From Mesorhizobium sp. (lineage in GTDB: Bacteria; Pseudomonadota; Alphaproteobacteria; Rhizobiales; Rhizobiaceae), in NCBI GenBank assembly GCA_022833215.1, contig JAIPUZ010000003.1, positions 1-39,924 of the forward strand: a DNA stretch of 39,924 bases, given 5' to 3'. Positions 17,084-33,166 of the stretch are shown here, piece after piece. The stretch's first letter is position 1. The number at the start of each line of letters is the position of its first letter. The translations under genes and the position numbers were made by a program. The notes below the pieces were generated by a model. It worked only from the letters and a program-made list of their open reading frames with translations, made no database searches and had not been told where the DNA came from.

Positions 17084-17548
17084 TCACAAGGAGCGCATGC
17101 CTTTCTCTCCGATCTCGATCTGGCCTTTGTCCGACAGAAGCCAGCCCGACAGGAATTCGACCGACGTAGCAACCTGGCCTAGCTTCCGCAGAGCACACTC
17201 CCACACCGTAGCCACGCGCCATCCCCTTTCCAGAAGCGTTGCGCGAACGTCACTGTCCCGAGCAACGTTGGCCTCGAACTTCGCCTGCCAGAACTCCGGG
17301 CGAGTCGATGGGCTGGTGGTGTAGCGACAGCCCTCGTGCCGATGCCAGAAACAGCCGTGTACGAAGATCACGGCGCGATGTTTCGGAAGAACGATGTCCG
17401 GCCGTCCGTAAACCTTGCTGGAATGAATACGGAAGCGAAAGCCGCGCGCGTGCAGCGCCCGCCTGAGAAGCAACTCGGGCTTCGTGTTCTTTCCCCTGAT
17501 CCCGGCCATCATCCGGGAGCGGGTCTGCTGGTCCACGATATCGGTCAC
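17084..17548 (-). CDS. vsr: Very short patch repair (Vsr) endonuclease
   Basis: Strand-specific nicking endonuclease of 154 residues that starts repair of T:G mismatches formed when 5-methylcytosine deaminates. The N-terminus MTDIVDQQTRSRMMAGIRGK and the core YGRPDIVLPKHRAVIFVHGC are diagnostic. Asp51 is the metal-binding catalytic residue, and the GCFWHRHEGC segment holds the zinc ligands and active-site His. Length is normal for the family. It is divergent from the C5-methyltransferase, whose mutagenic product it would repair. The start ATG lies 68 bp from the methyltransferase start, so both promoters share this gap. It reads toward the prophage fibre gene. Confidence 0.95.
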   Translation of the reverse strand: MTDIVDQQTRSRMMAGIRGKNTKPELLLRRALHARGFRFRIHSSKVYGRPDIVLPKHRAVIFVHGCFWHRHEGCRYTTSPSTRPEFWQAKFEANVARDSDVRATLLERGWRVATVWECALRKLGQVATSVEFLSGWLLSDKGQIEIGEKGMRSL

Positions 17549-17578
17549 GTGCGCCCTGGTTTTCGTTCCTGAACCTGG

Positions 17579-17609
17579 TATACATCGGCTGAATGAACTT
17601 CGTCAGGAG
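17579..17609 (+). promoter_or_regulatory. Extended -10 promoter candidate and ribosome site for methyltransferase
   Basis: TG-G-TATACA (-10 at 17579-17584, with the TGn extension) precedes the methyltransferase. A clear AGGAG ribosome site (17605-17609) lies 6 nt before a TTG codon at 17616 and decides that start. No good -35 is seen, which is tolerable for an extended -10 promoter. Confidence 0.4.
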
Positions 17610-17615
17610 CCTGAT

Positions 17616-19151
17616 TTGCCATCCACTTTCGGCGTTGTCGATCTGTTTGCCGGTCCGGGCGGACTTGGCGAGGGGTTCGCTTCCCTCGTCGAGGACGGCC
17701 ATGCGCCGTTCCGGATCGGCATTTCGGTCGAGAAGGAGGCGTCGGCCCATCGGACCCTGACGCTGCGTGCCTTTCTGCGCGAGTACCGTGCACGTCATGG
17801 CGTCTTGCCGAAAGAGTTCATCGATTTCCATGCCGGGCTGGCATCCGAACCGGACTGGTCAGCCGTCGATGCCGAAGCGTGGCAGCATGCCATCGACGAA
17901 GCCCGCGCGCTTGAGCTGGGCACCGGGGCTGCGGCGACCGCCATAAATGGCGCCATCGCGACGCTGAAAGCAAAATACGACGACACGATCCTGATCGGCG
18001 GCCCGCCCTGTCAGGCATATTCCCTGGTGGGGCGCGTCCGCTCCAGAGGCAAGGTCGGCTACGTCCCGGAGGAGGATGCGCGGCACTACCTCTTTCGGGA
18101 GTACATCCGGGTCCTCGACAAGCTTCGCCCGGCCGCCTTTGTTATGGAAAACGTCAAGGGCATGCTTTCGTCGACAGTCGAAAGCCGGCTTGTCTTCGAG
18201 ATGCTGATGGAGGATCTTTCCTCGCTCGGCACGGGTCACGCCCATCACTACGAACTTCGTGCCGTCCGGGTAGAGGATGGCAAGGCCAGCCTGCAGGAGG
18301 CGGCGCTGCCCTCGGATTTCATCGTGCGCGCCGAGGCGTTCGGAGTCCCGCAGCGTCGCCACAGGGTGATCATCGTCGGCATCCGCTCTGACCTCGCAGG
18401 ACGTGCCGCCGATGCGGAGATCGCTGTATCGGGGATGGCACGTACCGTCCGCGATGTCATCGAAACAATGCCCGCCTTGCGAAGCGGCATCAGCCGCGGG
18501 CTCGACGACGCGGCGGCTTGGCGAGGAGAAGTCCTCGAAGCCGCAAACATGCTAGCCGGCCTTTCCAAGGGTGAGGACAACCGGGCGCTCCGTGAGGCGT
18601 TCCTGAGCGTTTCGGAGCAAGTGGAGGAAAACCCGACTACCGTTCGGGCTGCGTCACGGTTGCCAGACGGCTACGGCACTTCGAACGATGAGCTACTGCA
18701 GTGGATCGAGCGACCGGAACTTCGCGCGATCGCCCAGCACGAGACGCGTGGGCACATGGCGTCGGATCTGGGCCGCTACCTGTTTGCTGCCGTGTTCGGA
18801 ACCGTCCATCACTACAGCCCGAAGGCGGCCGATTTCCCTCTGTTGCTCAGCCCTGATCACCGCAACTGGCACAGTGGTGTCTTCAATGACCGCTTCCGGG
18901 TTCAGCTGGCGGACGAGGCATCGACCACGGTCACGAGCCACATCTCGAAGGATGGCCACTACTTCATTCACCCCGATCCGATCCAGTGCCGTAGCCTGAC
19001 GGTTCGCGAAGCTGCTCGTCTGCAGACCTTTCCCGACGATTACCTGTTTCTCGGCAACCGAACGCAGCAATATGTCCAAGTTGGAAATGCCGTGCCGCCG
19101 TTTCTTGCAAGGCAGATTGCAGCGCTCGTGCTATCTACGCTGAAACGGTGA
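17616..19151 (+). CDS. DNA (cytosine-5-)-methyltransferase
   Basis: C5-cytosine methyltransferase, 511 residues from the TTG start. Motif I is VVDLFAGPGGLGEGF (about 7-21), motif IV GGPPCQAYSL carries the nucleophile Cys132, motif VI is MENVKG (about 177-182), motif VIII QRRHR (246-250), and motifs IX-X near the C-terminus read REAARLQTFPDDY and QVGNAVPP. The region between motifs VIII and IX is long enough for a target recognition domain. An in-frame ATG at 17484 would add 44 residues, but they lie antisense to Vsr and lack a ribosome site. The target site cannot be read from sequence. It probably marks self DNA for the adjacent nuclease operon. Confidence 0.95.
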   Translation: MPSTFGVVDLFAGPGGLGEGFASLVEDGHAPFRIGISVEKEASAHRTLTLRAFLREYRARHGVLPKEFIDFHAGLASEPDWSAVDAEAWQHAIDEARALELGTGAAATAINGAIATLKAKYDDTILIGGPPCQAYSLVGRVRSRGKVGYVPEEDARHYLFREYIRVLDKLRPAAFVMENVKGMLSSTVESRLVFEMLMEDLSSLGTGHAHHYELRAVRVEDGKASLQEAALPSDFIVRAEAFGVPQRRHRVIIVGIRSDLAGRAADAEIAVSGMARTVRDVIETMPALRSGISRGLDDAAAWRGEVLEAANMLAGLSKGEDNRALREAFLSVSEQVEENPTTVRAASRLPDGYGTSNDELLQWIERPELRAIAQHETRGHMASDLGRYLFAAVFGTVHHYSPKAADFPLLLSPDHRNWHSGVFNDRFRVQLADEASTTVTSHISKDGHYFIHPDPIQCRSLTVREAARLQTFPDDYLFLGNRTQQYVQVGNAVPPFLARQIAALVLSTLKR

Positions 19152-19212: not shown

Positions 19213-21018
19213 TCATGATTGTCGCACCTCTTGGATTGAACCCCGCGGAACTGGGAATTCAGCGGCTCTTACCTTCGCCCACGTGTCCGCGCGCTTCGCC
19301 ACCTCCGAAATTTGCTGACCCGGGGCGATCCTGTTGAACTCGGCGTTTACGACGACGGCCCAGTCCCAGAGCAGGTCTCGCAGGCCAGCTGAAATCCCTT
19401 GCCGCATCCATATCTGCTCGAGGTCGAGCCGGTCACCAAGTCGATCGGCTACCACCGATACGACGTAAGTCGCAATGTTGACCCATCCTTGGCGAAACAC
19501 CTCCTTTGCTTCCTTTGTCTTGATCATGCTCTCGATCGCCTTGAACAGGATGACCTTGGCGATCATCGCCCGATACCAGCGGGCATCGAGTGGGCTGGGC
19601 ACAATCGTCGGATCGTCATCGAGAGCAGCCATGAAGGCCGCGAAGTTCTTCTCGCCAGCCATGGCGACCTGGTTCGGCTTGCAGCGCCAGGCTTCATGGT
19701 ACTTGGCGATGTCGTTCTTGGTCAGCTTGCGTTTCGGCGGGATCATCTCCTTCAGGTTTCGCCTTTTGGCCGGCGTGGTGCCTTCCCTCAGCAGCATGAC
19801 GTTGTAGGCGCCAGCTGCGCGCTCGTAGAACCATCGCGTTGCACCGTCGGGGCACCACGTGTCGTTCGCGAGTTTCTCGAGCTCTCGATGGAACGGGCGA
19901 TTCGCCGACAGGTCGGACATCTTCACCGCGTTCTGACTGTTCGCATACCGTGACACGTTGCTGATCAGTCTCTCGCGCGCTTCGTCTTGCGATCCCTTCA
20001 GGATGATGATCTTGGCCGGGACCATGACATGGCTGAGATCGATGGTACGATCATCGCGGGATGAGAAGTAGATGGTCGAGGTTGTCTGGCCGCCGTTCAC
20101 GATCTGCAGACCCTTCAGGAAGGACAGGCCCAGATTACCGTCGTCGGTCCGCTCGAAGGCCGCTTCGTCGCAGACAAGCACAAGGCCATTGTTGAAGGCG
20201 AGGAAGTGCTCCGGTTCCTTCCGCAGCGTTTCGACGATGCCCTTGTTGACCGCGCGCTTGTTCCCCAGAAAGGTGCGAATATTGGCTTCGAGCAGCGTCG
20301 TCCCGTGGCGCAGATAGAGATCTCGAATGAGCTGCCCTGGAATGGCTGTTAGGGCATACTCGTAGTCAGCATCGGGGTCTGGAACATGTACGCAGGGGAG
20401 TGCCCGACCGATCGACTGGACGAAACTTACGGCCAGTTCGTCTCGCGGTTTGCCCTCGGTGTGGCGGAACAGCCTCTCCATATCCATGGCCTCGACGGCC
20501 ACCATCTTCTGGTGAACCTCCTTGTTCGAGAACCGTTTGGTTTTGGTCTTGCCATCGGTGATCACGAACACTCGAAGTCGGTCGATGTCGCCCCAGCGAG
20601 AACGAATAGTGGCGACCAGATCCCTGACGGGATGCGTTGGATCGATCCTTGCGTCGAGGTTGCCGCTTGCCGCTCGAAAGAGAAAGCGAACGCCTTCGCT
20701 TGCAGTTGCGGTGGCATCCGAGTCCCTGAGATCGTTCAGTTCTTCTGTCCCGAAATAGTGGGTCACGAAGAGGTCGAGAGCCGTTTCATCGGAGCTGAGC
20801 GCATAGCCCGTAATGCGGAGCTTCGCGTTGCCGACCTTGCCGCTCCAGTGGCAAACGGTTGGTGCCTCGCAGATCCCGGTTTCCGCGACGTGCTCCATGA
20901 CCATTTCCGCAAAAACGAGCTCATCCGAAGGAAATGGGCCTTCGCCGGCCTCTACGCGCTCGGCGATGATGGTCTGCAGATCGGAACGAAAGTTGCGGTG
21001 AAAATCATCGAGGCTCAT
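19213..21018 (-). CDS. AIPR family protein
   Basis: Protein of 601 residues with the AIPR (abortive infection phage resistance) domain, first noted in lactococcal abortive-infection proteins. The family core lies at about 220-400: LLEANIRTFLGN (242-253), VNKGIVETL (257-265), FLAFNNGLVLVCDEA (272-286) and LQIVNGGQTTSTIYF (304-318). About 200 N-terminal residues before the core could hold a nuclease-like or recognition domain but no motif is firm. I use the ATG at 21018, one nucleotide after the DUF4420 stop; an upstream TTG at 21033 would add five residues. Last gene of the operon. The molecular activity of AIPR is not settled; in this setting it is likely an effector or DNA-binding partner. 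Confidence 0.9.
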   Translation of the reverse strand: MSLDDFHRNFRSDLQTIIAERVEAGEGPFPSDELVFAEMVMEHVAETGICEAPTVCHWSGKVGNAKLRITGYALSSDETALDLFVTHYFGTEELNDLRDSDATATASEGVRFLFRAASGNLDARIDPTHPVRDLVATIRSRWGDIDRLRVFVITDGKTKTKRFSNKEVHQKMVAVEAMDMERLFRHTEGKPRDELAVSFVQSIGRALPCVHVPDPDADYEYALTAIPGQLIRDLYLRHGTTLLEANIRTFLGNKRAVNKGIVETLRKEPEHFLAFNNGLVLVCDEAAFERTDDGNLGLSFLKGLQIVNGGQTTSTIYFSSRDDRTIDLSHVMVPAKIIILKGSQDEARERLISNVSRYANSQNAVKMSDLSANRPFHRELEKLANDTWCPDGATRWFYERAAGAYNVMLLREGTTPAKRRNLKEMIPPKRKLTKNDIAKYHEAWRCKPNQVAMAGEKNFAAFMAALDDDPTIVPSPLDARWYRAMIAKVILFKAIESMIKTKEAKEVFRQGWVNIATYVVSVVADRLGDRLDLEQIWMRQGISAGLRDLLWDWAVVVNAEFNRIAPGQQISEVAKRADTWAKVRAAEFPVPRGSIQEVRQS

Positions 21019-21019
21019 G

Positions 21020-22024
21020 TCAATCCAGTCCAAGTTCTTTGATCAGCTCCGAAAGTCCGATCGAGGGAACTTCGAGCGCGTCGAGGTCGAGCACATAGGC
21101 AGCTGAGCGGATGGCGGCTGGAAGCGCCGCGCGCGTGAGACGCGGCATGTCACCTTCCGCGCGGAACGCCCTTGCGTCCTTCAATGTCAGTGTGCGCCCG
21201 TAGAGCGCTGCATGCTCGTCGAGGTACCCCATCACCATGAGCAGTGCTTCGAACCCGCGTTGCACTCCGGCCAGTCCGAACCTCTCTCGGAGCTCAGTCA
21301 CAAGACGGACGAGCGAGACCCCATCGGTATTCTCTTCGAAGCGAAAGCCGCACAGGAAGTTGGGCGCCCGGTCACCATCCAGCTGTTCGATGCTGTTGAT
21401 CCGCGCGAGGAAGCTGCCGGTCCGGACCGTGCTCTTCACCTCTATCGCGCCACCCCGAACGTGGAAATCCTGTGCAGCCCGCAACGGCCCCTGCCAGCAG
21501 TCGAGAGCACCGGCTCCGAGGGAGGTGTCCGTGAGCAGCCTGAGCATCCAGAGTTCGCCGAGCAGGCCGATCTGCGCATCGGACGAAAGAGGACGGTGCG
21601 TTCGGGCCATGAAAGCCTGCCACTCCCTGACCCGTTCGAGGAAGGCTTCCACAACGTCGCGGCTCGCGCTGTTGGCTGCAGTCTCCAGCGTTCTCAAGAC
21701 ATCCACGACCATGATGGCGAAGATGTCGGGTGAACCCTCTGGCCGCCTCACGAGGGCGATCGCCGTCTTGCCCGCGAATACGGTTTGACCCTCGATGCAG
21801 GAGACATCGAAACCCTTGCCCTCAGGAAGCCTTGCCGGGTTCACCGGCCACGATCCCGGAAAGGAGACGATCAACGCCTCCCGTCCGAGCGGGAAGTGAC
21901 AGCCTGCTTCAACAGAGACGGCGCCCATCCCAGTGAGGTGGACAAATCGCCAGTCTTCCGCCGCTTCTTGGCGCGCGAGCGCTCGCCAGGCACGCGCAAT
22001 CCCATCTTCAGTCCACCCACTCAT
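21020..22024 (-). CDS. PD-(D/E)XK motif protein (DUF4420), predicted nuclease
   Basis: Protein of 334 residues matching DUF4420, a restriction-endonuclease-fold family. The catalytic signature is complete: Glu157 in GLLGELWMLRLL, Asp186 in AAQDFHVRG, and the Glu195/Lys197 pair in AIEVKSTV. The start ATG lies inside the last codons of the Z1 gene (17-nt overlap), so a longer open frame upstream is not used. The N-terminal 140 residues are beta-rich (FVHLTGMGAVSVEAGCHFPL) and may bind partner or DNA. In Z1-linked systems this family is the likely DNA-cleaving subunit, fed by the GHKL and Z1 ATPases. No conventional type II enzyme accompanies the methylase, so this is the best restriction candidate. 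Confidence 0.88.
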   Translation of the reverse strand: MSGWTEDGIARAWRALARQEAAEDWRFVHLTGMGAVSVEAGCHFPLGREALIVSFPGSWPVNPARLPEGKGFDVSCIEGQTVFAGKTAIALVRRPEGSPDIFAIMVVDVLRTLETAANSASRDVVEAFLERVREWQAFMARTHRPLSSDAQIGLLGELWMLRLLTDTSLGAGALDCWQGPLRAAQDFHVRGGAIEVKSTVRTGSFLARINSIEQLDGDRAPNFLCGFRFEENTDGVSLVRLVTELRERFGLAGVQRGFEALLMVMGYLDEHAALYGRTLTLKDARAFRAEGDMPRLTRAALPAAIRSAAYVLDLDALEVPSIGLSELIKELGLD

Positions 22025-24875
22025 TGAGGCCTCCCCAAAGTACGCTGTTGGCGATGTACCTCGAATTGGAGACCCTTCTCTCGGAGTTGCTTGACGGAAA
22101 ACTGATTGCCCAGGCGACGACCGGATCGGCATTCTTCAGTTCATCGACGCCCGCACCCTCGGGATCGAGCAGATAGAGCATGAGCAGGCCGCGTTCCCGG
22201 CGAGATGGAATACCCTCTTCGGCGACGCCTTCTCCGAGTACATGACGGATCTGTGGACCTCTCGGTTCGGACGGCGGCTCCTTGCCTTCGTTTCGATCCG
22301 TGTCGTTGCGCCAGGTCTTCTGGCTGAGATCGAGCGCTGCCTTCCATTCTGCCTCGGTCAGATCGATGGCCTGATCGCGAGGCGAGATCAGGGTCTTGAT
22401 CGAGTATCGATCCGCATGCTCGGTCGTGCGCTTGCGCTGGAGCATGTTGACCGAAAAACCGCCTACCGTGCGGTGCTTGTCGTCCGGGCCGCTGTCCTTC
22501 CCGATCAGTGCGACCGTCCAGTTGGTCAGCTCACGATCCTTGTTCATCTCCTCGATGAAGTCCGCGATCAGCGGACTCATTATCCGGAAGCTGGCGGGAT
22601 GGGTCCTGTAATCCCGGAGGAATGAGATTACGCTCAGGGCTGGCACGTTGCGCCACAGGTGACCGTTCCACTTTTGACGATCCGGCACGAAGTGCTGATG
22701 GTTCAGGTCCTTCGATGGGCCAAGTGCACCGATGAACCGATCCGTAGCCTCGAAGTTCGCCGTGATGTCATCCTTGCGGTTGGGAAACACGATAGTCTGT
22801 AGAAGATCGCCCGAATAGGTCAGCTGCATAGCGCGAGCGTTCCTCATCTTCGCCCGCGAAGTCACGGTCAGAACGGAGTGCGATTTTACGCGCAGGCCGA
22901 ACTGTTTGGGCGTGGCGCCGGCCGCGACCATGTTGTCGAACTCCTGACGCAACTCTTCGGCGGCATCGGCGATATGGCCAAACCACTCCACCATTTCCTG
23001 CGATGTGTAGAGGCGGCAGACATCGAGGTAGCCGTCGCGGTAGCCGAACCAGCGCCCCATCTGCATGAGTGTGTCGTACATGCGTGCAGTTCGAAGGAAG
23101 TAGCTCGTGCAGAGACCTTCGAGCGTCAGACCGCGCGCCAGCTTGTCGCCGCCGATGGCAATCACCTTGAGGCCGGTGCCATCATTCTCGGCGTAGTCGA
23201 GTGCGTCTTTCGCCGTCCCGTTGATTTCGCGCACGCGAATGTCTGACAGGACGTCGGGGAGGACGCCACGAATGTCCGCCCACGAGAAGTCCTCCAGCGT
23301 TTCTCCTTCGACGAGGGCAGAGCGAATTCCCTTCATGCCTAGCAGGAAGGTCTCTTCATATTCCTTGCGCATAGACGCCTCGAGGTTCTCGAGCTCGATG
23401 CCGCGGGTGTAGCGGCCCTTCAGATCCCGCACGTACTCTGCGACCTGGTTGACGACAGCGTTCTGTACCGAGGTGAAGCGGGTGACGTGGATGAGCATCG
23501 AGGAGTGCTTGCTGCCCTGTCTTCTCAGCTTCCTCACGGCACAGGCATAGACGAAGGAGCGGATCGCTTCTGCGAGCGAGTCCGGCGCACGGTCCTCCCC
23601 CCGCCATCGTGGCCGGTATCCGTTCTTGTGTCGTGGCGGCATCCACGGCTGGAACTCATCGTCCGAAAGCGGGCGCACCAGAGGCAGGTCTTCCGGCGTG
23701 CTGGAAGCTGATCCGAAGACACGGCCCGGTCCGACATAATTCGATGGTGCCGCAAGGCTGGTGATGAAGGCTGCGGGGAAGAGGTCCGGTCCGTGCTCCT
23801 GAGTCTCCCCGCGGTCATGAATGAAGATGTTCGCAAAGGGTGTCGCCGTGTAGCCGACATAGGCCTTCCGCGAGAAATGGTGGAGGATCGACCGGATCAA
23901 CCTGTTGATCGTCTTGGGCTCGTGTTCGAGATCCGGGTTGCCGAACTCGTCCACGACATCTTCACCGGTGTCGACGGATCCGTGATCGGACTCGTCGTCG
24001 ATCACTAGGAGAGGCAGGTTGGTGACGAGTTTGCGACCTGTTTCGGGGTCGACGTGATTGGCCACACGGTTGCGAATCCAGTGCAGCAGGCGCTCCAAAA
24101 CCGTCTTGTTCTTCTTGACGACGAACAACCACGGTCGCTGTTCTGGGCTGATGTTCATCTTCGCGGCAACGGCCGTATTGAAGTCGCCCTTGTCGCTCCG
24201 ATTCGTTGCAGCATTGGGACGGACCGACATGTCCTTATCGATCAGTCCGACCCCCACTGCCGGGAGCTCGTCAGCATCCGTGATGGTGGCAAAGCCGAGA
24301 AACCCCTCGTCCAAGCGGATCTGGGTCTGTGCTCTCAGGTTGTTGTGCAGGCCGGCGAGCACGATGATGATCTTGTAACCGGCGTCGGCTGCCTTGCAGA
24401 TCAGTCCGGTATAGTTGCCTGTCTTCCCCGACTGGACGTGGCCCACGACTAGGCCGCGACGATCCCAGGCGCCTTCCCGGGTCGGGTCCTCGAGCTGCGA
24501 AAGGACTTCGTCCGTGGCGACGTCGAGAGCATCGAGGGCCGTCCAGGGGATGCGTGCTTCCATGTACTCCGAGTAGCGCTGCCAATAGGTCCAGCCCTTC
24601 TTCCTTTCTGCATCAAGCCAGGCCACATGGTCCTCACCGCTCGACAGGGTGGCGTTCTCGCCCACCGTGCGGCTTGACCGGCGGATCAGTTCGTCAACGA
24701 GCGCGTCCCGATCAACAAGGGCGAAATCGTCCTCCATCATGATCGACAGCTTCGTCAGCTCCTTCTCGATCATTTCCGGAGAGACAGGGCTCTGAGCGCG
24801 TTCTGCAGCAAGGCGGAGCATGTTCTGGGCCATGGAAAGGATTGAATCGAAGGCCTTCTGGTTTGAAATCGTCAT
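22008..24875 (-). CDS. Z1 domain superfamily 2 ATPase/helicase
   Basis: Large motor-like protein, 955 residues. An N-terminal helical region (1-135) is followed by a superfamily 2 core: Walker A GHVQSGKT (145-152), Walker B LLVIDDES (289-296), then a YVGYTATPFANIF motif III region near 340-352. The Z1 domain covers about 400-700, with GGDKLARGLTLEGLCTSYF and the arginine-finger motif QMGRWFGYRDGYLDV. Z1 proteins are found almost only with MutL-like ATPases, PD-(D/E)XK nucleases and methylases, and are predicted to translocate or remodel DNA. ATGA overlap with the upstream GHKL gene, 17-nt overlap with the downstream nuclease gene. All key ATPase motifs are intact. Confidence 0.93.
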   Translation of the reverse strand: MTISNQKAFDSILSMAQNMLRLAAERAQSPVSPEMIEKELTKLSIMMEDDFALVDRDALVDELIRRSSRTVGENATLSSGEDHVAWLDAERKKGWTYWQRYSEYMEARIPWTALDALDVATDEVLSQLEDPTREGAWDRRGLVVGHVQSGKTGNYTGLICKAADAGYKIIIVLAGLHNNLRAQTQIRLDEGFLGFATITDADELPAVGVGLIDKDMSVRPNAATNRSDKGDFNTAVAAKMNISPEQRPWLFVVKKNKTVLERLLHWIRNRVANHVDPETGRKLVTNLPLLVIDDESDHGSVDTGEDVVDEFGNPDLEHEPKTINRLIRSILHHFSRKAYVGYTATPFANIFIHDRGETQEHGPDLFPAAFITSLAAPSNYVGPGRVFGSASSTPEDLPLVRPLSDDEFQPWMPPRHKNGYRPRWRGEDRAPDSLAEAIRSFVYACAVRKLRRQGSKHSSMLIHVTRFTSVQNAVVNQVAEYVRDLKGRYTRGIELENLEASMRKEYEETFLLGMKGIRSALVEGETLEDFSWADIRGVLPDVLSDIRVREINGTAKDALDYAENDGTGLKVIAIGGDKLARGLTLEGLCTSYFLRTARMYDTLMQMGRWFGYRDGYLDVCRLYTSQEMVEWFGHIADAAEELRQEFDNMVAAGATPKQFGLRVKSHSVLTVTSRAKMRNARAMQLTYSGDLLQTIVFPNRKDDITANFEATDRFIGALGPSKDLNHQHFVPDRQKWNGHLWRNVPALSVISFLRDYRTHPASFRIMSPLIADFIEEMNKDRELTNWTVALIGKDSGPDDKHRTVGGFSVNMLQRKRTTEHADRYSIKTLISPRDQAIDLTEAEWKAALDLSQKTWRNDTDRNEGKEPPSEPRGPQIRHVLGEGVAEEGIPSRRERGLLMLYLLDPEGAGVDELKNADPVVAWAISFPSSNSERRVSNSRYIANSVLWGGLNEWVD

Positions 24876-26374
24876 TGCGTGTCTTTCGCTTCAAGGGCTG
24901 CAACCAGATCGAGGTGCCGGTCGAATGGGGGCGTGCGACCGAGCCGCTCGCGCGCCTCGGCCGGGCTGAGATCGCGGAACTTCACCAGTGCTTCAAACAT
25001 CGAGGACAGGGTCTCCATCACCTCGTTCTCGGCCGCTCCGGTGAAACCAGTTCTCGGCGTCTCCTTGTCTTCCGCCGTATCCAGCCAGATACGCTGCACG
25101 GGCACTGTCTCTTCGATCAGCCTCAAAAGAGCGAGGATGTCGGGCTTGAGTGGGCCGGCGCGATCGAGGATCGAGGCGAGGAGATCATGGTCACGAGCGA
25201 TCCGGTAAGACGTTCCTTGTGCCGAACGCCGCACTTGCCAGGCTTCGGCGACTGCGTTCGGGCGCGTGCCTGAGGCCGGGGTCACGTGTCCCCGGTGGGC
25301 GAAGACCCGCCGCGCCGTGTCGCGTGTTTCTGTTGCAAGACGATGAAGCTGGGATCGCAGGCGCACCGGGGGGCTGGCCGTCGATTTCAGGACATTGATC
25401 TTCCAATCGGAATCCGCGCTGTTCGGTATATCTAGCCGGATACGAGCGAGCCTGTGGGCTTCATCGCGCGGCCATGGCTTGCCGCCATCGCCGAGGCCAA
25501 GCCACCCCCCAGCGAGAAGGAGACGCTTGTTGCGGTAGACGTAGAAGCCCTCCTGTTGCGTCCATCCTCCGGGCCCCGCCGCCGCTTCCTGCTCGGCAGG
25601 CTTGAGCATGTCGCGATGCGGAAGGACGTGGCATTGCACGGTCACACCTGTGGTGTGGAGGATCCGATACTCGGGGCTTTCGAGCGCCTTGCCGGGATGA
25701 CCGATGAGGTACGGATCCCAAGGCTTCAACCCTCTGCCATTGAGCGAGAGGCGCAGCATGGGCAGTTGGCCATCGATGAGGCGATGAAAGGTCATCGCAA
25801 GATGCGCCTCCACGCGATCCGCGAGCTCGATCATGTCGGTGGCTGCGAAGCCATCCATCACGATACGGTCCAGTTTCTCCCAGAGCACGACGGTGCCGTG
25901 GGCCATCTGGTCCAGCGGCGCGAGCAAATGCTCTGATCCCGGCGCCGGTCCCTCGAAGAGCGGCCAATCGGCCCCGGGTTCCTGACCGATGAGATCGAGG
26001 TCCCAGCGAAGGCAGACGACCGGTCCACCTTCCTTCCGACTGGCGACGGTGAGGCGACGGGCCTGGGAGAAGCTGGCCGTCTTCAGGCCCAGCCCGAAGC
26101 GCCCGAGATCGGTGGCGGCGCGTTCAGCCCTCGGATCGCGAGCGCCAAGGCGCATGCCGGCCTCCAGAGCCGCGTCGTCCATGCCGTCGCCGTCATCGAC
26201 GATTCTTACCCAGCTCTCTGGACCGGCCCACTCAAGATGAACGGCGACGTCGTGCGCTTTTGCGGCGATGGAATTGTCGACCAGATCGGCAAGTGCGGTG
26301 GGAGGCGCGTAGCCGAGTCCCCGAAGGGACTCGAGCATCGACCCGGCGTGAGGGGGAGCATTTCTTACACCCAT
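24872..26374 (-). CDS. MutL/Hsp90-like GHKL ATPase
   Basis: Protein of 500 residues with a Bergerat-fold ATPase domain at the N-terminus. Motif I is ALADLVDNSIAA (27-38), motif II VDDGDGMDD (59-67) and motif III GRFGLGLKTASFSQ (91-104). A transducer-like domain follows (about 180-330), including FYVYRNKRLLLAGGWLGLG, as in MutL, MORC and Hsp90 relatives. The general base Glu of motif I is replaced by Asp30, conservative but notable. Such ATPases act as ATP-gated clamps. Genomic surveys of MutL homologs in restriction-modification systems link this type with Z1 and nuclease genes. I use the ATG 4 nt after the sigma factor stop; the frame runs further upstream but overlaps that gene. Confidence 0.9.
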   Translation of the reverse strand: MGVRNAPPHAGSMLESLRGLGYAPPTALADLVDNSIAAKAHDVAVHLEWAGPESWVRIVDDGDGMDDAALEAGMRLGARDPRAERAATDLGRFGLGLKTASFSQARRLTVASRKEGGPVVCLRWDLDLIGQEPGADWPLFEGPAPGSEHLLAPLDQMAHGTVVLWEKLDRIVMDGFAATDMIELADRVEAHLAMTFHRLIDGQLPMLRLSLNGRGLKPWDPYLIGHPGKALESPEYRILHTTGVTVQCHVLPHRDMLKPAEQEAAAGPGGWTQQEGFYVYRNKRLLLAGGWLGLGDGGKPWPRDEAHRLARIRLDIPNSADSDWKINVLKSTASPPVRLRSQLHRLATETRDTARRVFAHRGHVTPASGTRPNAVAEAWQVRRSAQGTSYRIARDHDLLASILDRAGPLKPDILALLRLIEETVPVQRIWLDTAEDKETPRTGFTGAAENEVMETLSSMFEALVKFRDLSPAEARERLGRTPPFDRHLDLVAALEAKDTQ

Positions 26375-26378: not shown

Positions 26379-28553
26379 TCACAACCCCAGAAATTCCTGG
26401 AGCCGACGCTTGCGGCCCGGATGGGAAAGACGATCGAGGCCTTTCGCTTCAATCTGACGAATGCGCTCGCGCGTCACGCCGTAGATCTGACCGATTTCCT
26501 CGAGGGTCATGTCAGAATCGCGCCCGATACCAAAGCGCATCCGAATCACATCAGCCTGACGTTCCGGCAGATCAGCCAGTGCTTCTGTCACGATCCTTTC
26601 GGTTTCTGCCTCGTCGAAGACATCCTCTCCCGAAGGCTCGGGCAGCAGGTCGTCCCAGTCGTCAAGGCTTTCGGGATATTCGGCTTCACGCGGGATGCTG
26701 CGGAACTGTCTGACTTCGTCGATTGTCCATTCGAGCTCTTCGGCGAGTTCGAGGTCGGAGACGGCACCACTGACCCGAACGTCCAGTCTCTCGAAGGCGC
26801 GATCGAGCTTGGTGATCTTCTCGTTTCGATGCACGGGGATGCGGATCGCCGCGCCTTCATCAGAACGCCATCGCGTAATGGCCTGTCGCATCCAATAAGT
26901 GGCGTAGATGAGGAAGCGATAACCACGCTCGGGATCAAATCGCCTTGTGGAACGCTGCAGACCCATGAACGCGACTTGGAACACGTCCTCCGGATCCTCG
27001 CCTTCCTCCACGTTCCGCGAGGCAAACCGCCGCACGTAAGGCAGGTGCTCGCGGATAAGGTGTTCGGTAGCGGATTCGGACACCAGGATTTCGGCTTCCA
27101 GCTGACTGGCCTCGACTTGGCACCCTGGGAACTGCTCCAGTCTGCGGACCAACTCCTTGTGGAATGCGAGAGAGAGTTCCAATGCCTCTAGCGCAGCAAG
27201 TGCCTCTCTTCGTCGTTTGCCGTCCATTACCCGGCCAGTAGTGTGCCACGACCTCAGGGCGTCCGCGGCGGCCATTACTTCGGACGTCTCCGCATGGCCC
27301 GGTCGCGAGGGAATAATGGTTCTCAGGGAGACCGAGCCGGGGTCTCGCGAACCTTCGCGGATGCGGTCCATGACGTCGAGGATCGTTTCGACGGCGGTCT
27401 CGGAGGCCAGGATGCCCAGCTGGAGTTCCTGCTTGGCCCGCATCATTGGCTCCAGCAACTGAAGCTCTTCTGATTTGTCCATGACGAATCGCTGTGTCCC
27501 GGGAAGCCGCGTCCGACGCGTAAGGGCTGCTTCGATTGCGTCGGCGAGGTCATCGGACGAAGTTTCCGATCTGGCGTCCCAGAGCCCGGCATCATATCCG
27601 GTCGCCTGATCGAGATTGAAGCCCGCAGCTTCGAGATTGCGCTGTAAATTGATGCGCAGTTCCTCGAGATCACCATTCCCCTCGCAATGGGCGATCAAGC
27701 GGTCGATATCATCAAAGGAGCACAAACCCTTCGCCAGAATTTCCTCTGCCCAGGTGATGCAGATCTCCGGATCGATCGACATCCGCGTGCTGGTCTGGAC
27801 GACAGCGCGTTTGACCGACTGCCGGCCGCGGTTGCGGACCTTCAGGAAGTCATGCTCTGCACCGTGATCAGCGGTTGCTGCGGCGTTGGATCCGATGCCC
27901 TCTCCGGCAATCTGTGCTGGTGAAAGGTCGAGATCCCAATCCCCGTCCTCACCATCCAAAACCGCAGGTGCCGAATTGACGAGCGCGACGAATGTCCCTG
28001 AAGCTGTTTCGCCCGGATACTGGCCGAAGAATTCCTCTGGCCCTTCCTCCGCCTCGAAGCTCAGGAACTCATCCAGATCGTCAGTTGCGTCATCCGGCTG
28101 CGTTTCTTGGATTACTGTGAAACGATGCTCTGGAACTGCATCGATCTCGGCCGTGGCGATCTTCTTCACCGATACATTTTCGTGTCCATCGACCGGCTCC
28201 GGCGAGCTTGCAATGGGCGAAGAGAGCAGCCGCGCTGCCAAACTGTGGCCCTCGGCAAATGCGACATCAGCAGGTGTCTGCCGATCATGGTTCAGTGATC
28301 CGGGATGGGCACCCGACCGAATGAAGAGATCGCAAAGGGCAAGATTCCCCATGCGCGCCGCAAGATGAAGCGGCGTGTCTCCCTTCGGATCGGCCAAATG
28401 AAGACGAGGGGATGCCGCGAAATCGGTGAGTCTCTCGAGCTTCCCTTCGGCGATCAGCCGGACCTCGACGGGGTCAAGAACATGCCCTTCCGGTCCGCTT
28501 GCGGACTGGACGTGACCGCCGAGGATGCGGGACAGCCTATCCATGATCTTCAT
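26379..28553 (-). CDS. Ankyrin-repeat sigma-70 family RNA polymerase sigma factor
   Basis: Protein of 724 residues with an unusual layout. Residues 57-112 carry about one and a half ankyrin repeats (GDTPLHLAARMGNLALCDLF, then RQTPADVAFAEGHSLAARLL). An acidic low-complexity stretch (about 150-230) and a helical region follow. The C-terminal 226 residues are a primary-type sigma factor: region 2 at about 499-570 (FDPERGYRFLIYATYWMRQA), region 3.0 with RIPVHRNEK, and region 4 at about 662-720 (LPERQADVIRMRFGIG, then TLEEIGQIYGVTRERIRQIE). The start ATG overlaps the WYL gene by 17 nt. Fusion of a protein-binding ankyrin domain to RpoD-like regions inside a defence operon suggests a dedicated, regulated sigma factor, perhaps for this operon. 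That role is inference. Confidence 0.9.
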   Translation of the reverse strand: MKIMDRLSRILGGHVQSASGPEGHVLDPVEVRLIAEGKLERLTDFAASPRLHLADPKGDTPLHLAARMGNLALCDLFIRSGAHPGSLNHDRQTPADVAFAEGHSLAARLLSSPIASSPEPVDGHENVSVKKIATAEIDAVPEHRFTVIQETQPDDATDDLDEFLSFEAEEGPEEFFGQYPGETASGTFVALVNSAPAVLDGEDGDWDLDLSPAQIAGEGIGSNAAATADHGAEHDFLKVRNRGRQSVKRAVVQTSTRMSIDPEICITWAEEILAKGLCSFDDIDRLIAHCEGNGDLEELRINLQRNLEAAGFNLDQATGYDAGLWDARSETSSDDLADAIEAALTRRTRLPGTQRFVMDKSEELQLLEPMMRAKQELQLGILASETAVETILDVMDRIREGSRDPGSVSLRTIIPSRPGHAETSEVMAAADALRSWHTTGRVMDGKRRREALAALEALELSLAFHKELVRRLEQFPGCQVEASQLEAEILVSESATEHLIREHLPYVRRFASRNVEEGEDPEDVFQVAFMGLQRSTRRFDPERGYRFLIYATYWMRQAITRWRSDEGAAIRIPVHRNEKITKLDRAFERLDVRVSGAVSDLELAEELEWTIDEVRQFRSIPREAEYPESLDDWDDLLPEPSGEDVFDEAETERIVTEALADLPERQADVIRMRFGIGRDSDMTLEEIGQIYGVTRERIRQIEAKGLDRLSHPGRKRRLQEFLGL

Positions 28554-29397
28554 GGACGACCTCCCTGTTGAGAAGCACAATCTGCTGATCCTGCGGCTTC
28601 CTTGCGCTTGGATCAGTATCGAGCCCGAGCCGCCTGAGCGCATAGTAAAGCAGCGCACGCCTCACCTTGATCTTCGCCTTGCCGCCTCGCATGCCGTAGT
28701 CGAGCGCGATGACCTTCGCCTGCGTATCCGACAGTTCTGGGTGAGGGCCGATGTCCAGCGTGACCTCGGAATTCCAGTCGCGATCATTGCTGGCCGACGT
28801 TTCGCTCTCTCGCGACCCTCGGATGTCGAGGATCCGAGAGAGAAGGAAATCCTTGAAGCAGTCATCGGTCATGCAGAACGCACGCGTGTGCCAGCGGAAC
28901 CCGTCGAATGCGATGGCATGGGGTGCGATCCAGCGCCAGCGGGGCTCGGCGCTGGAGAGGGACTGGTACTTCACCTCGATCGCCTCGGACCGCCGAATGG
29001 CATCCACCACTGACCGGAGCGTCTCCGGGTTGACGCCACGCACAGGCGTCGGCGCGGACGAGAAGGCCGGGAGTTCTGCAATCCACGAATCCTCGCGGTC
29101 CAGAATCCCGTCCGCCACCGACCGAAGCTGGGCTAGGTAGCGACTTGCGTCAGGTTCGAGGAACTGCGGCTTGAAACTCGAGCCCCGGACATAGGTCCGC
29201 GCGCTCTTGTCGTAGACGATATTGTCCGGAGCAAAGCCGATGTAACGGTTCAGGTCGGTGGACGCCTGGTTCACCGAGACTCCGAACTGCTCCATCAGGT
29301 CGCTGCGGTTCACATGTCCCTCCCAGAACAGGCGGAACTCTATGAACTCGAGCCGTTGCTCGATTCCCCAGCGAAGTTCGGCCCTTTCGTTGCCCAC
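28537..29397 (-). CDS. WYL-domain transcriptional regulator (CapW/BrxR type)
   Basis: Regulator of 286 residues from a GTG start. Three parts fit the CapW/BrxR group that controls CBASS, BREX and other defence operons: an N-terminal winged HTH (about 10-70; RWGIEQRLEFIEFRLFWEGH, then SVNQASTDLNRYIG and NIVYDKSARTYV), a WYL ligand-binding domain (about 122-195; IEVKYQSLSSAEPRWRWIAP and FRWHTRAFCM), and a C-terminal dimerisation region. Characterised members are dimeric repressors that bind an inverted repeat upstream of their own gene and are thought to release DNA when the WYL domain senses nucleic acid. First gene of the operon, overlapping the sigma factor gene by 17 nt. Confidence 0.9.
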   Translation of the reverse strand: MGNERAELRWGIEQRLEFIEFRLFWEGHVNRSDLMEQFGVSVNQASTDLNRYIGFAPDNIVYDKSARTYVRGSSFKPQFLEPDASRYLAQLRSVADGILDREDSWIAELPAFSSAPTPVRGVNPETLRSVVDAIRRSEAIEVKYQSLSSAEPRWRWIAPHAIAFDGFRWHTRAFCMTDDCFKDFLLSRILDIRGSRESETSASNDRDWNSEVTLDIGPHPELSDTQAKVIALDYGMRGGKAKIKVRRALLYYALRRLGLDTDPSARKPQDQQIVLLNREVVHEDHG

Positions 29398-29419: not shown

Positions 29420-29453
29420 GCGCATGGAAACTATGCGCGCCCATTTTCTGGGC
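29420..29453 (-). promoter_or_regulatory. Candidate operator for the WYL repressor
   Basis: Two adjacent inverted repeats lie 23-56 bp upstream of the WYL start: GCGCAT-N7-ATGCGC (29420-29438) and GCCCA-N5-TGGGC (29439-29453). This is where CapW/BrxR repressors bind. Only poor matches to a standard -35/-10 pair are visible just upstream of the repeats. Confidence 0.5.
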
Positions 29454-29769
29454 TTATCTTAAGCTATCGGGCGACAAGGACGCGTGCAATCGAAATAAAA
29501 CGTGAAGTAAATGAAACGAACTCGTGGAATTGGTTAGTGAACTCCAGAGGGAGATGGGCGTGTCGAAGCGAGCCAAGCCTCGACACGCCCGAACAGTGAC
29601 GCAACCGCCTATGCGGCCACGCGGCCGGCGAAAACTCGAGCCGACCAAGTGGGCTCCGAGCGGGTTCGCCGCCATCCCCACCGCCGCGCTCGATCTGGCC
29701 CACAGTCCAGCGTCTCCCACGGTCCCCGCGCTTATCGGGTCCGGGTCCCCATCGGTCGTCACGACCCTG
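29454..29769. other. Noncoding gap between the defence operon and the RepB module
   Basis: No credible gene. It must hold the promoter of the leftward WYL operon; an AT-rich stretch at about 29455-29525 on the minus strand is the likely place. The rest (29530-29769) is GC-rich and holds open frames without coding character. No tRNA, terminator or obvious attachment repeat was recognised. Confidence 0.5.
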
Positions 29770-30687
29770 TCAGGTTGCCTCGGGCGGCAGCGTGGATGTC
29801 AGCTCGGCGATCGCCTGGAACTCGGTCAGGAATTCGGGACGATGCTGCATGAGGTAGCGAACCACCCGGGCATTCCCGAGCAACTTCGTGAGGTAGCCCT
29901 TGATGACGGTCAGATGCAGGTGATCCTGACCGTAGGTCTCCTGAATGGAGGTGATCGACTCCTGAAGGCGCGCCAGCTCGCTCTCCATCCGGGCCATGGC
30001 TTCGGGCGTGATACCCTTGATGCGCTTGGGCTTCGCACCTTCCGCAAGCTGCGTCTGCGGGGTGCCGGCCAGGATCGCCGAAACGTAAGCGACCGAGTAG
30101 TTGTTGGCATTGACCAGCAGCTCGGCGGCCTCGAGCTGGCGCAGTGGCTTCATTTTCCGCAGGATCTCGAACACAGCCATCGGACAAGGCTTGTCCTTGA
30201 GGATGGCGACCGTCTCATCGCAGATGCCGTTCAGCATGCGGACCTTGCGGCGGACGCTCTGGGGATTGATGTCCAGCGCCTTGGCGATCTTTTCTTCCGG
30301 AACGCCGCGCTCGATCGCGCGCCGGATCATTTTGTGTTCCTGGACCGGCGACAACCGGCTGATCCGCTTGTTGTAGGTGAATGCTTCGTCGTCGGTGGAG
30401 ACCAGGCATTCGACCCGCTCGATGCCAAGATCCTTCAACACCTCGATGCGAACATGGCCGTCCAGCAGCAGGAAGGTGCCTGGATTCGCGGGATCGCGAG
30501 CGACCACGGGCGGCTCAACGAGGCCGACTTCGCGGATCGAAGCGGTGATCTGCTGGTATTTCTTGCTAGACTTCGTAGCAGCCCGGAGCACCTTCACCGG
30601 GAGAAGGGCGTCGACGGCCAGGGTCACGCAGTCGTCTTCAAAACCATGAGCGACCACATCGGTGCGACGGTGATCTTTCCGCGTCAT
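29770..30687 (-). CDS. RepB-like plasmid partitioning protein (ParB family, RepB C-terminal domain)
   Basis: DNA-binding protein of 305 residues. The N-terminal ParB/Srx-like domain (about 20-105) holds LLLDGHVRIEVLKDLGIE, a divergent form of the ParB nucleotide-binding motif. A ParB-type HTH lies at about 115-165 (SPVQEHKMIRRAIERGVPEE, IAKALDINPQSVRRKVRML). The C-terminal half (LRKMKPLRQLEAAELLVNAN and the long helix ELARLQESITSIQETYG) matches the RepB C-terminal domain of alphaproteobacterial partition proteins. No ParA/RepA or RepC is adjacent, so it serves an integrated element rather than a repABC plasmid. It overlaps the upstream ParB-like gene by 4 nt. Confidence 0.85.
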   Translation of the reverse strand: MTRKDHRRTDVVAHGFEDDCVTLAVDALLPVKVLRAATKSSKKYQQITASIREVGLVEPPVVARDPANPGTFLLLDGHVRIEVLKDLGIERVECLVSTDDEAFTYNKRISRLSPVQEHKMIRRAIERGVPEEKIAKALDINPQSVRRKVRMLNGICDETVAILKDKPCPMAVFEILRKMKPLRQLEAAELLVNANNYSVAYVSAILAGTPQTQLAEGAKPKRIKGITPEAMARMESELARLQESITSIQETYGQDHLHLTVIKGYLTKLLGNARVVRYLMQHRPEFLTEFQAIAELTSTLPPEAT

Positions 30688-31592
30688 GGGGCCGCCCTCG
30701 CATGGTGCTCTAGGTAGGTGGGCATAGCCTCGAGGCTTTCGGCACGCAGCAGCGTCAGGAAGTTCTCGTCACTCCGGAGCGCGCGGAATGCCTCTGTGAC
30801 GAACAGTAGCCGGCCCTGCGCCAATTCCGCCTTCTTGATCATCAGCTTCTGGCGATTGGCCTCCTGCTGATAGGCACGCACCAGGGCATCGCTCGTCAGC
30901 GGGCGTCTTGTGCGGTTCACCTCACGGCCGAAGGGGGTCTCATCGACACGCGGCCCATGGCGCTGGCGTCGGTCGAGCAGACGCCGTACGGCCGCGAATT
31001 TCTTTCCACGCAGCTTCTTCTCCGTATAAGCCTCCATCAGCGCGCGCTGGGCACCTTCGTCGTCCGCTCGGGAGATTTCGATCGCGAGGTTCAGTGGCAT
31101 GAGGCCGGTCTCGACCGCAGTCACCAGACGCTGCTCACCGCGCTCTAGCAGCCCGGCGATCATGTTGACGTATTCGGGGCTGACCCCAATCTTGTCGGCA
31201 ATCGCCCGGTCGTTGTAGCCGCGCTTCCGCAGGGTGCCAATTTCCTGCATCAGGTCGATCGCCCTGTGCTGGCGCCTGGCGCAGTTCTCGACGAGGCTCA
31301 TGACCAGGCAATCGCTCTCATCGGCGTCGATCACGATGGCAGGGATCGTGTGCTGTTTCAGTTCAATGAAGGCTTCGAGCCGCCCTTGGCCGCAGACAAG
31401 GTCATATTCCGCAGGCTCCGTGCCCGCGCGCCGGGTCACCGTGATCGGGCGCTTGAGGCCGATCCGCGCAATGCTCTCGACCATTTCCTCGAACGTTCGC
31501 CGGTTGCGCACACGCGGATTGAGGATCCGGATCACGTCGGTCGAGATGAGGGTCACATGCTTGTGGGCATCGGTTGGGATGTCATCGGGCAT
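30684..31592 (-). CDS. ParB/RepB-like DNA-binding protein
   Basis: Second ParB-family protein, 302 residues from the ATG that overlaps the recombinase stop by one base (TGATG). The ParB N domain (about 12-100) contains YDLVCGQGRLEAFIELKQ and VIDADESDCLVMSLVENCAR. The HTH region reads RKRGYNDRAIADKIGVSPEY. A basic C-terminal half follows (EKKLRGKKFAAVRRLLDRRQ). The open frame extends further upstream but that part overlaps the recombinase and is not used. Paired with the next gene, it may form a two-protein partition-like or recombination-directing complex. The order recombinase, ParB-like, RepB-like recurs in alphaproteobacterial islands as far as I recall. Confidence 0.82.
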   Translation of the reverse strand: MPDDIPTDAHKHVTLISTDVIRILNPRVRNRRTFEEMVESIARIGLKRPITVTRRAGTEPAEYDLVCGQGRLEAFIELKQHTIPAIVIDADESDCLVMSLVENCARRQHRAIDLMQEIGTLRKRGYNDRAIADKIGVSPEYVNMIAGLLERGEQRLVTAVETGLMPLNLAIEISRADDEGAQRALMEAYTEKKLRGKKFAAVRRLLDRRQRHGPRVDETPFGREVNRTRRPLTSDALVRAYQQEANRQKLMIKKAELAQGRLLFVTEAFRALRSDENFLTLLRAESLEAMPTYLEHHARAAP

Positions 31593-33166
31593 CAGGCCAC
31601 CTCCAAGAATCTGGCCCTGCCGGCCATCGAGAAGAAGAAATCGAGCGTGTCGAAGCGATAGGCATCGAGAGACAGGCCGTTCTGCTCGGCGAGTCGAAGC
31701 CGATCTGCGGTCATGTCGATGCTCGGGAGGACGTAGTAGTCGCGTGGCGCCGCGTTCAGCTCGTCCATGCGTATGGCGATGGTGATGTCCGGCAAGAGCC
31801 CCGTGTCGAGACGGATGCGCCAGCGCAACGAGCCGGCCGCGGTTTCGAAGCATCGCGACAGCACGACCGATGCCGTGAATTCGCCATTGACGGTCAGAAG
31901 CTCGGTCCGGGGATCCTGAACGGCGAGGCCACCGGCACTCTCGATCCCTGCGATGACACCCGCGACGATCTGTGGATGAGCCTCGCGGAGCTTGCGGTTG
32001 ATCTCGATGTACCGGTAGTCCCGGTCGGGCTGATAGCCGACCATCTCGTAGGCGCGCAGCAGGCTGCCGAACCGGGACCGGAACGCGCTCGATGACGGCG
32101 TGTCCTCGTGCTCGTCGATGACCAGTCCGGAAAGGAAACCCTTGCTGGCAAGCAGCGCCCGAAGTACGTCCAGCAGGTCCTGGTCGGAAAGATGACGGCT
32201 GCGCGCATCGACGATTTCACGGGCGCGCAGAAACAGTGCCTCATCGACGATAGCCGGATAGGCGCCCTCGGCGCGGATCCACATCTCGCGGGGATTCATC
32301 ACCCGGCGCTGCTTCAGCTTGAACGAGATCTTGTTGAAGACGTTGTTGCCGATGTACTTCTCGTTGGTCAGAACCTGATGAACCGTTGCCCGCGTCCACG
32401 GCCGTCCGAGATCGGTGCGCAGTCCGTCGGCATTGAGGACATCCGCGATCTCCCGCTCGGATCGACCATCCTCGACGAACATGCGGTACATGCGCCGGAC
32501 GACATCCTGCTCATGCTGGGGACCTGGAACGAGAATGACCCTGTCAGTTTGCAGGCTTTTCTGTTCGCCGCGGGACAGCTCGCCCTTGGGATTGCCATGC
32601 TCGTCGATCAGCACCCGGCGCAAGCCGTATCCGGGCGCGCCGCCCTGGCGGAAGCCGAGTTCGACCAGGCGGCACTGGCCAGCGAAGACTTTCACCGAGA
32701 GTTCGCGGCTGTATTCGCCAGCCATGACCCGCTTGACGGTCTTCAGCAGGTTCGAGCCGATACTGCCGTCATTCTCGAACTGTTCACCGCAATAGTGGAC
32801 GCGGATCCCGGCGCGCGAGCAGACATGCTCATGGTAGGCGCCTTCGTCGGCATCCTGAAACCGGCCCCATCGACTGACGTCATAGACGAGGATTGCCTTG
32901 AAGTCGGCCTGACCGGACTGAACCTCGGCCATCAGGTTCTGCAATGCTTCGCGGCCGTCGAGGCGTAACCCGCTTCGGCCGGAATCCTCGAAGACGCGCA
33001 GGATCTCAAGACCGCGATCCGATGCATATTTGCGGATGACGTCGAGCTGGTTCTCGGTCGAGTATTTCTGGTGATCCGTCGACATCCGGACATAGGCGAC
33101 GGCCGGGATGTCGTCATCGCGTTTCTCATCGGCTCCAGGCCGGCTTTCCGAGTAGCGCCCACTCAA
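31592..33166 (-). CDS. Large serine recombinase
   Basis: Site-specific recombinase of 524 residues starting at TTG, with GAGGA upstream. The resolvase domain (about 20-170) has VAYVRMSTDHQKYSTENQLD with nucleophile Ser29, FEDSGRSGLRLDGREAL, and ILVYDVSRWGRFQDADEG. The Recombinase domain (about 180-300) includes GGAPGYGLRRVLIDEHG, EREIADVLNADGLRTD and ATVHQVLTNEKYIGN. The C-terminal 200 residues are diverged and lack an obvious zinc-ribbon Cys set. Catalytic residues look intact, so it may integrate or excise the island. It is the first gene of a three-gene operon with two ParB-like genes and is divergent from the small HTH-like gene at 33261. Confidence 0.92.
   Translation of the reverse strand: MSGRYSESRPGADEKRDDDIPAVAYVRMSTDHQKYSTENQLDVIRKYASDRGLEILRVFEDSGRSGLRLDGREALQNLMAEVQSGQADFKAILVYDVSRWGRFQDADEGAYHEHVCSRAGIRVHYCGEQFENDGSIGSNLLKTVKRVMAGEYSRELSVKVFAGQCRLVELGFRQGGAPGYGLRRVLIDEHGNPKGELSRGEQKSLQTDRVILVPGPQHEQDVVRRMYRMFVEDGRSEREIADVLNADGLRTDLGRPWTRATVHQVLTNEKYIGNNVFNKISFKLKQRRVMNPREMWIRAEGAYPAIVDEALFLRAREIVDARSRHLSDQDLLDVLRALLASKGFLSGLVIDEHEDTPSSSAFRSRFGSLLRAYEMVGYQPDRDYRYIEINRKLREAHPQIVAGVIAGIESAGGLAVQDPRTELLTVNGEFTASVVLSRCFETAAGSLRWRIRLDTGLLPDITIAIRMDELNAAPRDYYVLPSIDMTADRLRLAEQNGLSLDAYRFDTLDFFFSMAGRARFLEVA

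Follow-up and report, generated by a model that had tools for sequence, protein, structure and literature searches.

The ankyrin-sigma gene belongs to an Mza operon

The locus described here lies in a 39,924-nucleotide stretch of a Mesorhizobium sp. genome (positions 1 to 39,924 of contig JAIPUZ010000003.1, assembly GCA_022833215.1), which we call the window. An interpretation made earlier from the letters alone, hereafter the sequence-only reading, had pointed to a gene at 26379-28553 encoding ankyrin repeats joined to an RpoD-like, primary-type sigma factor, and had placed it in a defence operon, downstream of a CapW/BrxR-type WYL regulator gene and 4 nt before a MutL-like ATPase gene. Our searches bore out this picture and put names to the genes. 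PADLOC profiles identified MzaA (3.8e-33), MzaB (4.2e-169), MzaC (E 0), MzaD (8.8e-56) and MzaE (4e-158), and by their coordinates the five genes are all there, in order and on one strand. The best NCBIfam matches were also MzaA to MzaE, every one of them under its equivalog cut-off (bits against cut-off: MzaA 234.6/800, E 3e-69; MzaB 645/850; MzaC 1173/1500; MzaD 280/420; MzaE 693/1050), and the genes are therefore called divergent relatives rather than equivalogs. As judged from these profiles, we are dealing with a divergent form of the Mza anti-phage system, with MzaA as its already catalogued sigma-70 subunit. The WYL protein matched CapW 9c5g (E 2.6e-70) over residues 9-263 of 286, that is, near full length, and BrxR 7t8k (E 2.8e-43). 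The MutL-like ATPase gene is mzaB, which starts 4 nt past the mzaA stop; in the E. coli locus mzaA and mzaB overlap by 4 nt.

The Mza system (mzaABCDE) was reportedly introduced as an anti-phage system by Gao et al. in 2020. Because PADLOC and NCBIfam name all five genes MzaA to MzaE, the sigma subunit is no oddity of this window, and the view that restriction-like systems do not normally include primary-type sigma factors did not hold for Mza, where MzaA is a named component. MzaA is labelled a sigma factor in NCBIfam NF041931 and in the RefSeq annotation of E. coli, and 55 of 5426 complete E. coli genomes carry an mzaA copy 90-99% identical in DNA to a Kluyvera mzaA query. PMC9523054, which cites Gao et al., also terms MzaA a sigma factor. 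The central surprise, a sigma subunit in Mza, is thus already known.

Domain organization and predicted fold of MzaA

The mzaA gene lies on the minus strand, which had been left unstated; the coordinates fit this strand only, since the plus-strand frame holds stops. The open frame covers 26379-28658 (759 aa), and the ATG at 28553 gives a 724-aa protein beginning MKI[IM]D, a start found in several relatives. Pfam recognized in the 724-aa form Ank at residues 58-87 (26.2 bits, cut-off 21.1), Ank_2 at 50-111 (26.8 bits, marginally below its cut-off of 27.3), and, both over their cut-offs, Sigma70_r2 (58.3 bits) and Sigma70_r4 (66.3 bits). The Sigma70_r3 match reached 18.2 bits, under the Pfam cut-off of 25.3, although AlphaFold2 still shows helices there. 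A PDB sequence search matched the RpoD of 7ye1 to residues 529-757 in the 759-aa form (E 8.7e-39).

The AlphaFold2 model (39-row alignment, mean pLDDT 73.8, pTM 0.41) shows confident ankyrin helices (from about residue 24-28 to 113), a mostly disordered stretch, a three-helix unit and then a sigma-like helical body (residue ranges in Table 1). The PDB matches listed by Foldseek were sigma70-type subunits in RNA polymerase complexes (best E 5.9e-14, alignments of at most 568 columns), with a query-normalised TM of just 0.20-0.33 and an rmsd of 14-22 A, because the domains are turned differently.

The ankyrin-sigma fusion is a trait of the MzaA family

To place the protein among its relatives, genome contigs were scanned with an mzaB alignment. 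Of 566 confirmed relatives, the 80 most like the window MzaB were kept together with 8 plasmid loci. A sigma gene was present in 58 of the 85 loci having at least 1.5 kb before mzaB, a share that is no population figure because this selection favours kin of the window. Among the 58 encoded proteins, Pfam (E <= 0.01) found Sigma70_r4 in 58, Sigma70_r2 in 57, Sigma70_r3 in 43, Ank_2 in 52 and Ank in 51. The ankyrin-sigma fusion is, by these domain matches, a family trait of MzaA.

The linkage of the fused architecture to defence genes, whose absence would have counted against the sequence-only reading, also held among the best matches listed across genomes. In 398 Pseudomonadota genomes, 16 of which contain MzaB (E <= 1e-60), 8 of these listed matches span the full ankyrin-to-sigma profile, beginning no later than position 10 and reaching at least 696. 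All 8 have an mzaB match at most 363 nt away and in the same orientation; one of the 8 is the window itself (G000), and two others (G515 and G541) share a genus. In the remaining listed matches the alignment begins at profile position 102 or beyond, in most cases around 190-204 or 400-440, and they are presumably rpoD and its kin; six such partial matches (L127-L132) had no mzaB within the surrounding 1.5 kb. In viral contigs, MzaA was found in 2 (L134 and L136) of 45 loci with an MzaB relative.

In a quick tree built from 81 MzaC rows, the sigma gene marks a single 60-row clade (SH-aLRT 100) that includes the window and in which 57 rows have the gene; the rows flagged for long branches all fall outside it. 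With the root placed outside the clade, parsimony gives two changes, one gain and one loss. Such retention indicates that the sigma gene is kept and not incidental. A chance neighbourhood of mzaA and the other mza genes was rejected on the clade pattern and on the mzaB linkage of the full-architecture matches. We also rejected the idea that the gene encodes the host RpoD or a second housekeeping sigma factor, as the genome has a separate rpoD (split into two incomplete frames at the ends of contigs) and the full-architecture matches listed are linked to mza.

DNA-reading residues are invariant and core-facing residues differ between branches

The 58 MzaA proteins comprise a main group of 42 and a branch of 16 that contains the window. 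In E. coli sigma70, whose numbering we use, R584, E585, R588 and Q589 contact the -35 element and region 2.2 positions bind core RNA polymerase. R584, E585, R588 and Q589 are invariant in 58/58 proteins, and Q437 is found in all 57 rows having a letter at that position. The core-binding residues are canonical in most of the main group (Q406 in 42/42, E407 in 39/42, N409 in 36/42). In the window branch, E407 is replaced by V in 12 proteins, N409 by F in 13, M413 by Q in 12 and W433 by Y or F in 12, and 15 of the 16 retain Q406; the window MzaA itself keeps D403 and Q406 and has E407, N409 and M413 changed. The stretch between regions 3 and 4 is also shorter in this branch. Measured against what the sequence-only reading had said would refute it, the outcome is mixed: regions 2 and 4 stand intact as regards DNA reading, and as regards core binding they stand in most of the 42 main-group proteins and not in the window branch.

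Since E407, N409, M413 and W433 are replaced, core binding may be weak or lost in the window branch. However, A408 and F409 of this branch resemble residues of ECF sigma factors. ECF sigma factors bind core polymerase, and the replacements alone therefore do not establish that core binding is lost. What the alignment shows for the window branch is a set of replacements at core-facing positions of sigma70 next to an unchanged DNA-reading helix.

The sigma part of the window branch could also be deteriorating and contribute little. The RpoD model NF004208 scores the window MzaA at 169 bits, against 364 and 246 for two other MzaA proteins, region 3 of the window protein is under the Pfam cut-off, and L032 is without most of region 2. 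The replacements are, however, fixed branch-wide rather than scattered, and region 2 of L023, L024, L025, L026 and L030 is 94-100% identical to that of the window, and we regard decay as very unlikely.

The region between the ankyrin repeats and sigma region 2, missed in the sequence-only reading, aligns in the main group with RpoD from region 1.1 onward. The main-group profile aligns in one piece with RpoD, from residue 27 (region 1.1) to the end of the RpoD row, and the window-branch profile is significant in region 2 only (2.1e-24); both comparisons used one RpoD, the partial one of the host. A PDB sequence search with the region-1.1 segment of the window MzaA gave no significant match. As this search was empty and the branch profile aligns with RpoD in region 2 only, the assignment of region 1.1 in the window branch rests on the AlphaFold2 model and on alignment to main-group relatives.

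A short conserved module, DLxxWExExE...ISxHxPID...DWxDxDxxLPE, was seen between the ankyrin part and region 1.1 of main-group MzaA proteins (26 aligned segments, L038-L077). The 27 of 58 proteins examined were chosen by a pattern, so that the second W and the preceding D are partly built in and the first W and the LP are not. The profile of this module matched in 3 of 398 genomes, none of them in the window branch.

A probable capW promoter and the case for a dedicated sigma factor

The sequence-only reading had found no good promoter upstream of the WYL gene and had suggested that the sigma factor drives the operon from a non-standard one. The first point held in part: a scan with the consensus promoter found 0 before capW, and an alignment of five loci shows a conserved sigma70-type pattern there. 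TTGnnn-N17-TAnnnT is present in 5/5 aligned regions (window and four relatives) and is directly followed by two inverted repeats, the pattern being counted by eye, without a chance control, in an alignment that leaves out L027, L028 and L033, which also have a WYL match. As the aligned loci are close kin and no chance control was made, the pattern is support for, and not proof of, a conserved sigma70-type promoter before capW. The second point was not upheld, and a non-standard promoter is rejected: the reading residues of MzaA are those of RpoD and the pattern before capW is sigma70-like. By analogy with the known regulator family, the two inverted repeats are possible operators through which CapW may regulate the operon. 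An adjacent WYL gene was found in just 8 of the 46 sigma loci with full flanks, and the WYL matches score low in L033 (78 bits) and L054 (50 bits).

MzaA could serve as a dedicated or back-up sigma factor, sustaining transcription of the mza operon and perhaps of some host genes in situations such as the inactivation of host sigma70 by phage proteins. The RpoD-like reading residues, the sigma70-like pattern before the operon in the window and its four relatives, and the canonical core-binding residues of the main group all agree with such a role. A dedicated sigma factor is nevertheless not needed, because the same promoter could be read by the RpoD of the host; before the operon there was no sign of an unusual promoter, CapW would already regulate it where the WYL gene is present, and the core-binding positions are changed in the window branch. 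We consider this role possible but unlikely, second in our ordering.

MzaA is modular and changes faster than its partners

Between the window and the relative L023, identity is 85% for MzaA, 96% for MzaB, 96% for MzaC, 98% for MzaD and 97% for MzaE; in this comparison MzaA changes faster than its partners. In one relative the ankyrin part has also been exchanged. In L029 (Pseudomonas sp. GM50), 7505-8144, which holds DNA upstream of the gene and the ankyrin part, shares 72.6% DNA identity with L052, from a different Pseudomonas; 8311-12000 shares 78.6% with the window, and the methyltransferase region 5001-7271 shares 91.4% with L052. L029 is thus a mosaic with an ankyrin part of Pseudomonas type, and this is a single event.

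Fast change could reflect a guard or decoy, in which the RpoD-like body baits phage proteins that seize sigma70 or RNA polymerase and their binding to MzaA triggers MzaB to MzaE. The main group resembles RpoD over most of its length, as does the predicted fold, and the ankyrin exchange in one locus would fit as well. The DNA-reading residues, invariant throughout the family, would be needless for a bait, and we hold this explanation to be improbable, behind the dedicated sigma factor and ahead of decay.

GcrA, a sigma70 cofactor of alphaproteobacteria, is fused to 3 of the 58 MzaA proteins, which have thereby acquired a further DNA-reading domain. L030 (2713-5901) has an in-frame GcrA block between the ankyrin and sigma parts (four Pfam stretches, 5.2e-68), and L026 and L027 (both 7596-10031) have one C-terminal GcrA domain (1.8e-17 and 3.6e-17), probably from one fusion event as the two loci are near-identical. 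No report of a GcrA-MzaA fusion was found among the open-licence PubMed Central papers listed, none of which holds the term "ankyrin repeat".

Methyltransferase, Vsr and other neighbouring genes

Both a Dcm and a Vsr gene are present in the window. Counting loci with full flanks, a C5 methyltransferase was found near 38 of the 46 that have a sigma gene and 20 of the 21 that do not, and Vsr near 37 of 46 and 14 of 21, respectively. The methyltransferase occupies the slot before mzaB in 10 of 27 sigma-less loci.

A phage structural module (window 16-17057) encoding a head/protease protein, a tail tube, a tape measure, a GTA-like tail protein and a DUF2793 protein adjoins the Vsr/Dcm/Mza block, and because of this direct adjacency the Mza operon is probably the cargo of a prophage. 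In Paracoccus L027, matches to these DUF2793 and tail genes also adjoin the Vsr gene. A RepB-RepB-serine recombinase cassette lies near mza at 29770-33166, and likewise in L079 (Alkanindiges, 19423-21479), about 2 kb past mzaE. A second serine-recombinase frame at 37209-38246 matches Pfam Resolvase at positions 109-145 only, and its resolvase N-terminal domain is largely missing. Comparison of the contig ends found no overlap, which leaves circularity without support.

Table 1. Coordinates of the mza operon, its control region and adjacent genes in the window
Feature	Position	Strand	Remarks
inverted repeat GCCCAGAAAATGGGC	29439..29453	-	possible CapW operator
inverted repeat GCGCATAGTTTCCATGCGC	29420..29438	-	possible CapW operator
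promoter-like pattern	29461..29489	-	TTGCAC (29489-29484), 17-nt spacer, TAGCTT (29466-29461)
capW/brxR-type wHTH-WYL regulator	28537..29397	-	overlaps mzaA start by 17 nt
mzaA	26379..28553	-	ankyrin ~24-113; acidic disordered linker 115-256; three-helix unit 262-310 in the place of region 1.1; helices 333-513 where region 1.2 and the non-conserved region would lie; regions 2 (499-565), 3 (578-623) and 4 (658-710)
mzaB, MutL/MORC-like GHKL ATPase	24872..26374	-	PADLOC MzaB 4.2e-169
operon frame	22008..24875	-	
mzaD, PD-(D/E)XK nuclease-like, DUF4420	21020..22132	-	database matches; real start probably inside this annotated frame
mzaE, AIPR protein	19213..21033	-	database matches
C5 cytosine DNA methyltransferase (Dcm)	17484..19151	+	convergent with the operon; Pfam DNA_methylase 1.4e-42
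Vsr mismatch endonuclease	17084..17548	-	Pfam Vsr 1.3e-29 on open stretch 17087-17602

A tentative role for MzaA as a promoter-recognising adaptor

We tentatively favour a model where MzaA is a promoter-recognising adaptor through which the ATPase, helicase and nuclease of Mza are connected with the initiation of transcription. MzaA would bind ordinary promoters through its RpoD-like reading residues, and might bind both MzaB and RNA polymerase, with the C5 methyltransferase possibly serving the distinction between self and non-self. What the data show are the fused architecture, its linkage to mza, the unchanging DNA-reading residues and, by parsimony, one origin of the sigma gene. The Mza profile matches, the RpoD-like main-group profile, the close spacing of mzaA and mzaB, the frequent C5 methyltransferase and the GcrA fusions are also counted in favour of the adaptor. 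In the main group (36 rows), distances of the ankyrin part and region 1.1 track those of MzaB and MzaD (rho 0.58-0.66), with 0.43-0.48 for region 2 and about 0 for region 4.

Several observations weigh against the adaptor. Besides the core-facing replacements and the shortened stretch of the window branch, L024 encodes an MzaA without the ankyrin part even though its MzaB is 97% identical. Three rows of the MzaC clade (L064, L065 and L072, Pseudomonas/Stutzerimonas) are without a sigma gene and have a C5 methyltransferase directly before mzaB. Four methyltransferase queries found none in 8 of the 46 full-flank sigma loci. The number of loci with a methyltransferase errs low, because one is annotated in L015, which is among the 8; in the 20 kb of the E. 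coli locus, however, the annotation lists none. Over all 47 rows, region 2 tracks MzaB and MzaD better (0.74 and 0.73) than the ankyrin part does (0.66 and 0.65). The distance correlations therefore lean to N-terminal docking on MzaB/MzaD in the main group and to the opposite over all rows; computed without a null model, they carry little weight, and our ordering of the explanations does not rest on them. That ordering places the adaptor first, followed by the dedicated or back-up sigma factor, the guard or decoy and, last, decay in the window branch.

A bolder and doubtful possibility, to which we give slightly less credence than to the decoy, is that a sigma factor has become the subunit with which a restriction-like nuclease complex recognises its target. 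MzaA would then scan DNA for promoters, and the GcrA-fused forms perhaps for methylation, so that Mza attacks invading DNA where transcription starts, with little or no use of the host RNA polymerase in the window branch.

Among the open-licence PubMed Central papers listed, no mechanistic study of Mza was found. What is new here are the branch-specific core-binding changes beside invariant -35 readers, the GcrA fusions, the Pseudomonas-type ankyrin mosaic and the promoter-like pattern before capW, conserved in the window and four relatives. The invariant reading residues, the branch-specific core changes, the natural ankyrin-less, sigma-less and GcrA-fused forms and the natural ankyrin swap make it testable why a defence system carries such a sigma factor.

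Comparison with known systems

The known Mza system has the same five genes in the same order as the window, and the Kluyvera MzaA L074, the protein scanned, whose DNA is 98% identical to the best E. coli copies, also has ankyrin repeats. Unlike known Mza, the window has capW at the head of the operon, altered core-binding positions in MzaA, and Dcm and Vsr genes beyond the operon's far end. Related systems, most of them without a sigma gene, share the effector gene types and have a C5 methyltransferase. The likeness to CapW/BrxR regulators lies in the near full-length match of the WYL protein and in the repeats near the promoter. GcrA, found as a Pfam domain in the three fused relatives, is absent from the window protein. 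With RpoD and primary sigma70 factors, the window MzaA shares regions 2 and 4, the -35 helix and a sigma70-like predicted fold; unlike RpoD, it has ankyrin repeats and a disordered linker in front, replacements in region 2.2 and a shorter stretch between regions 3 and 4.
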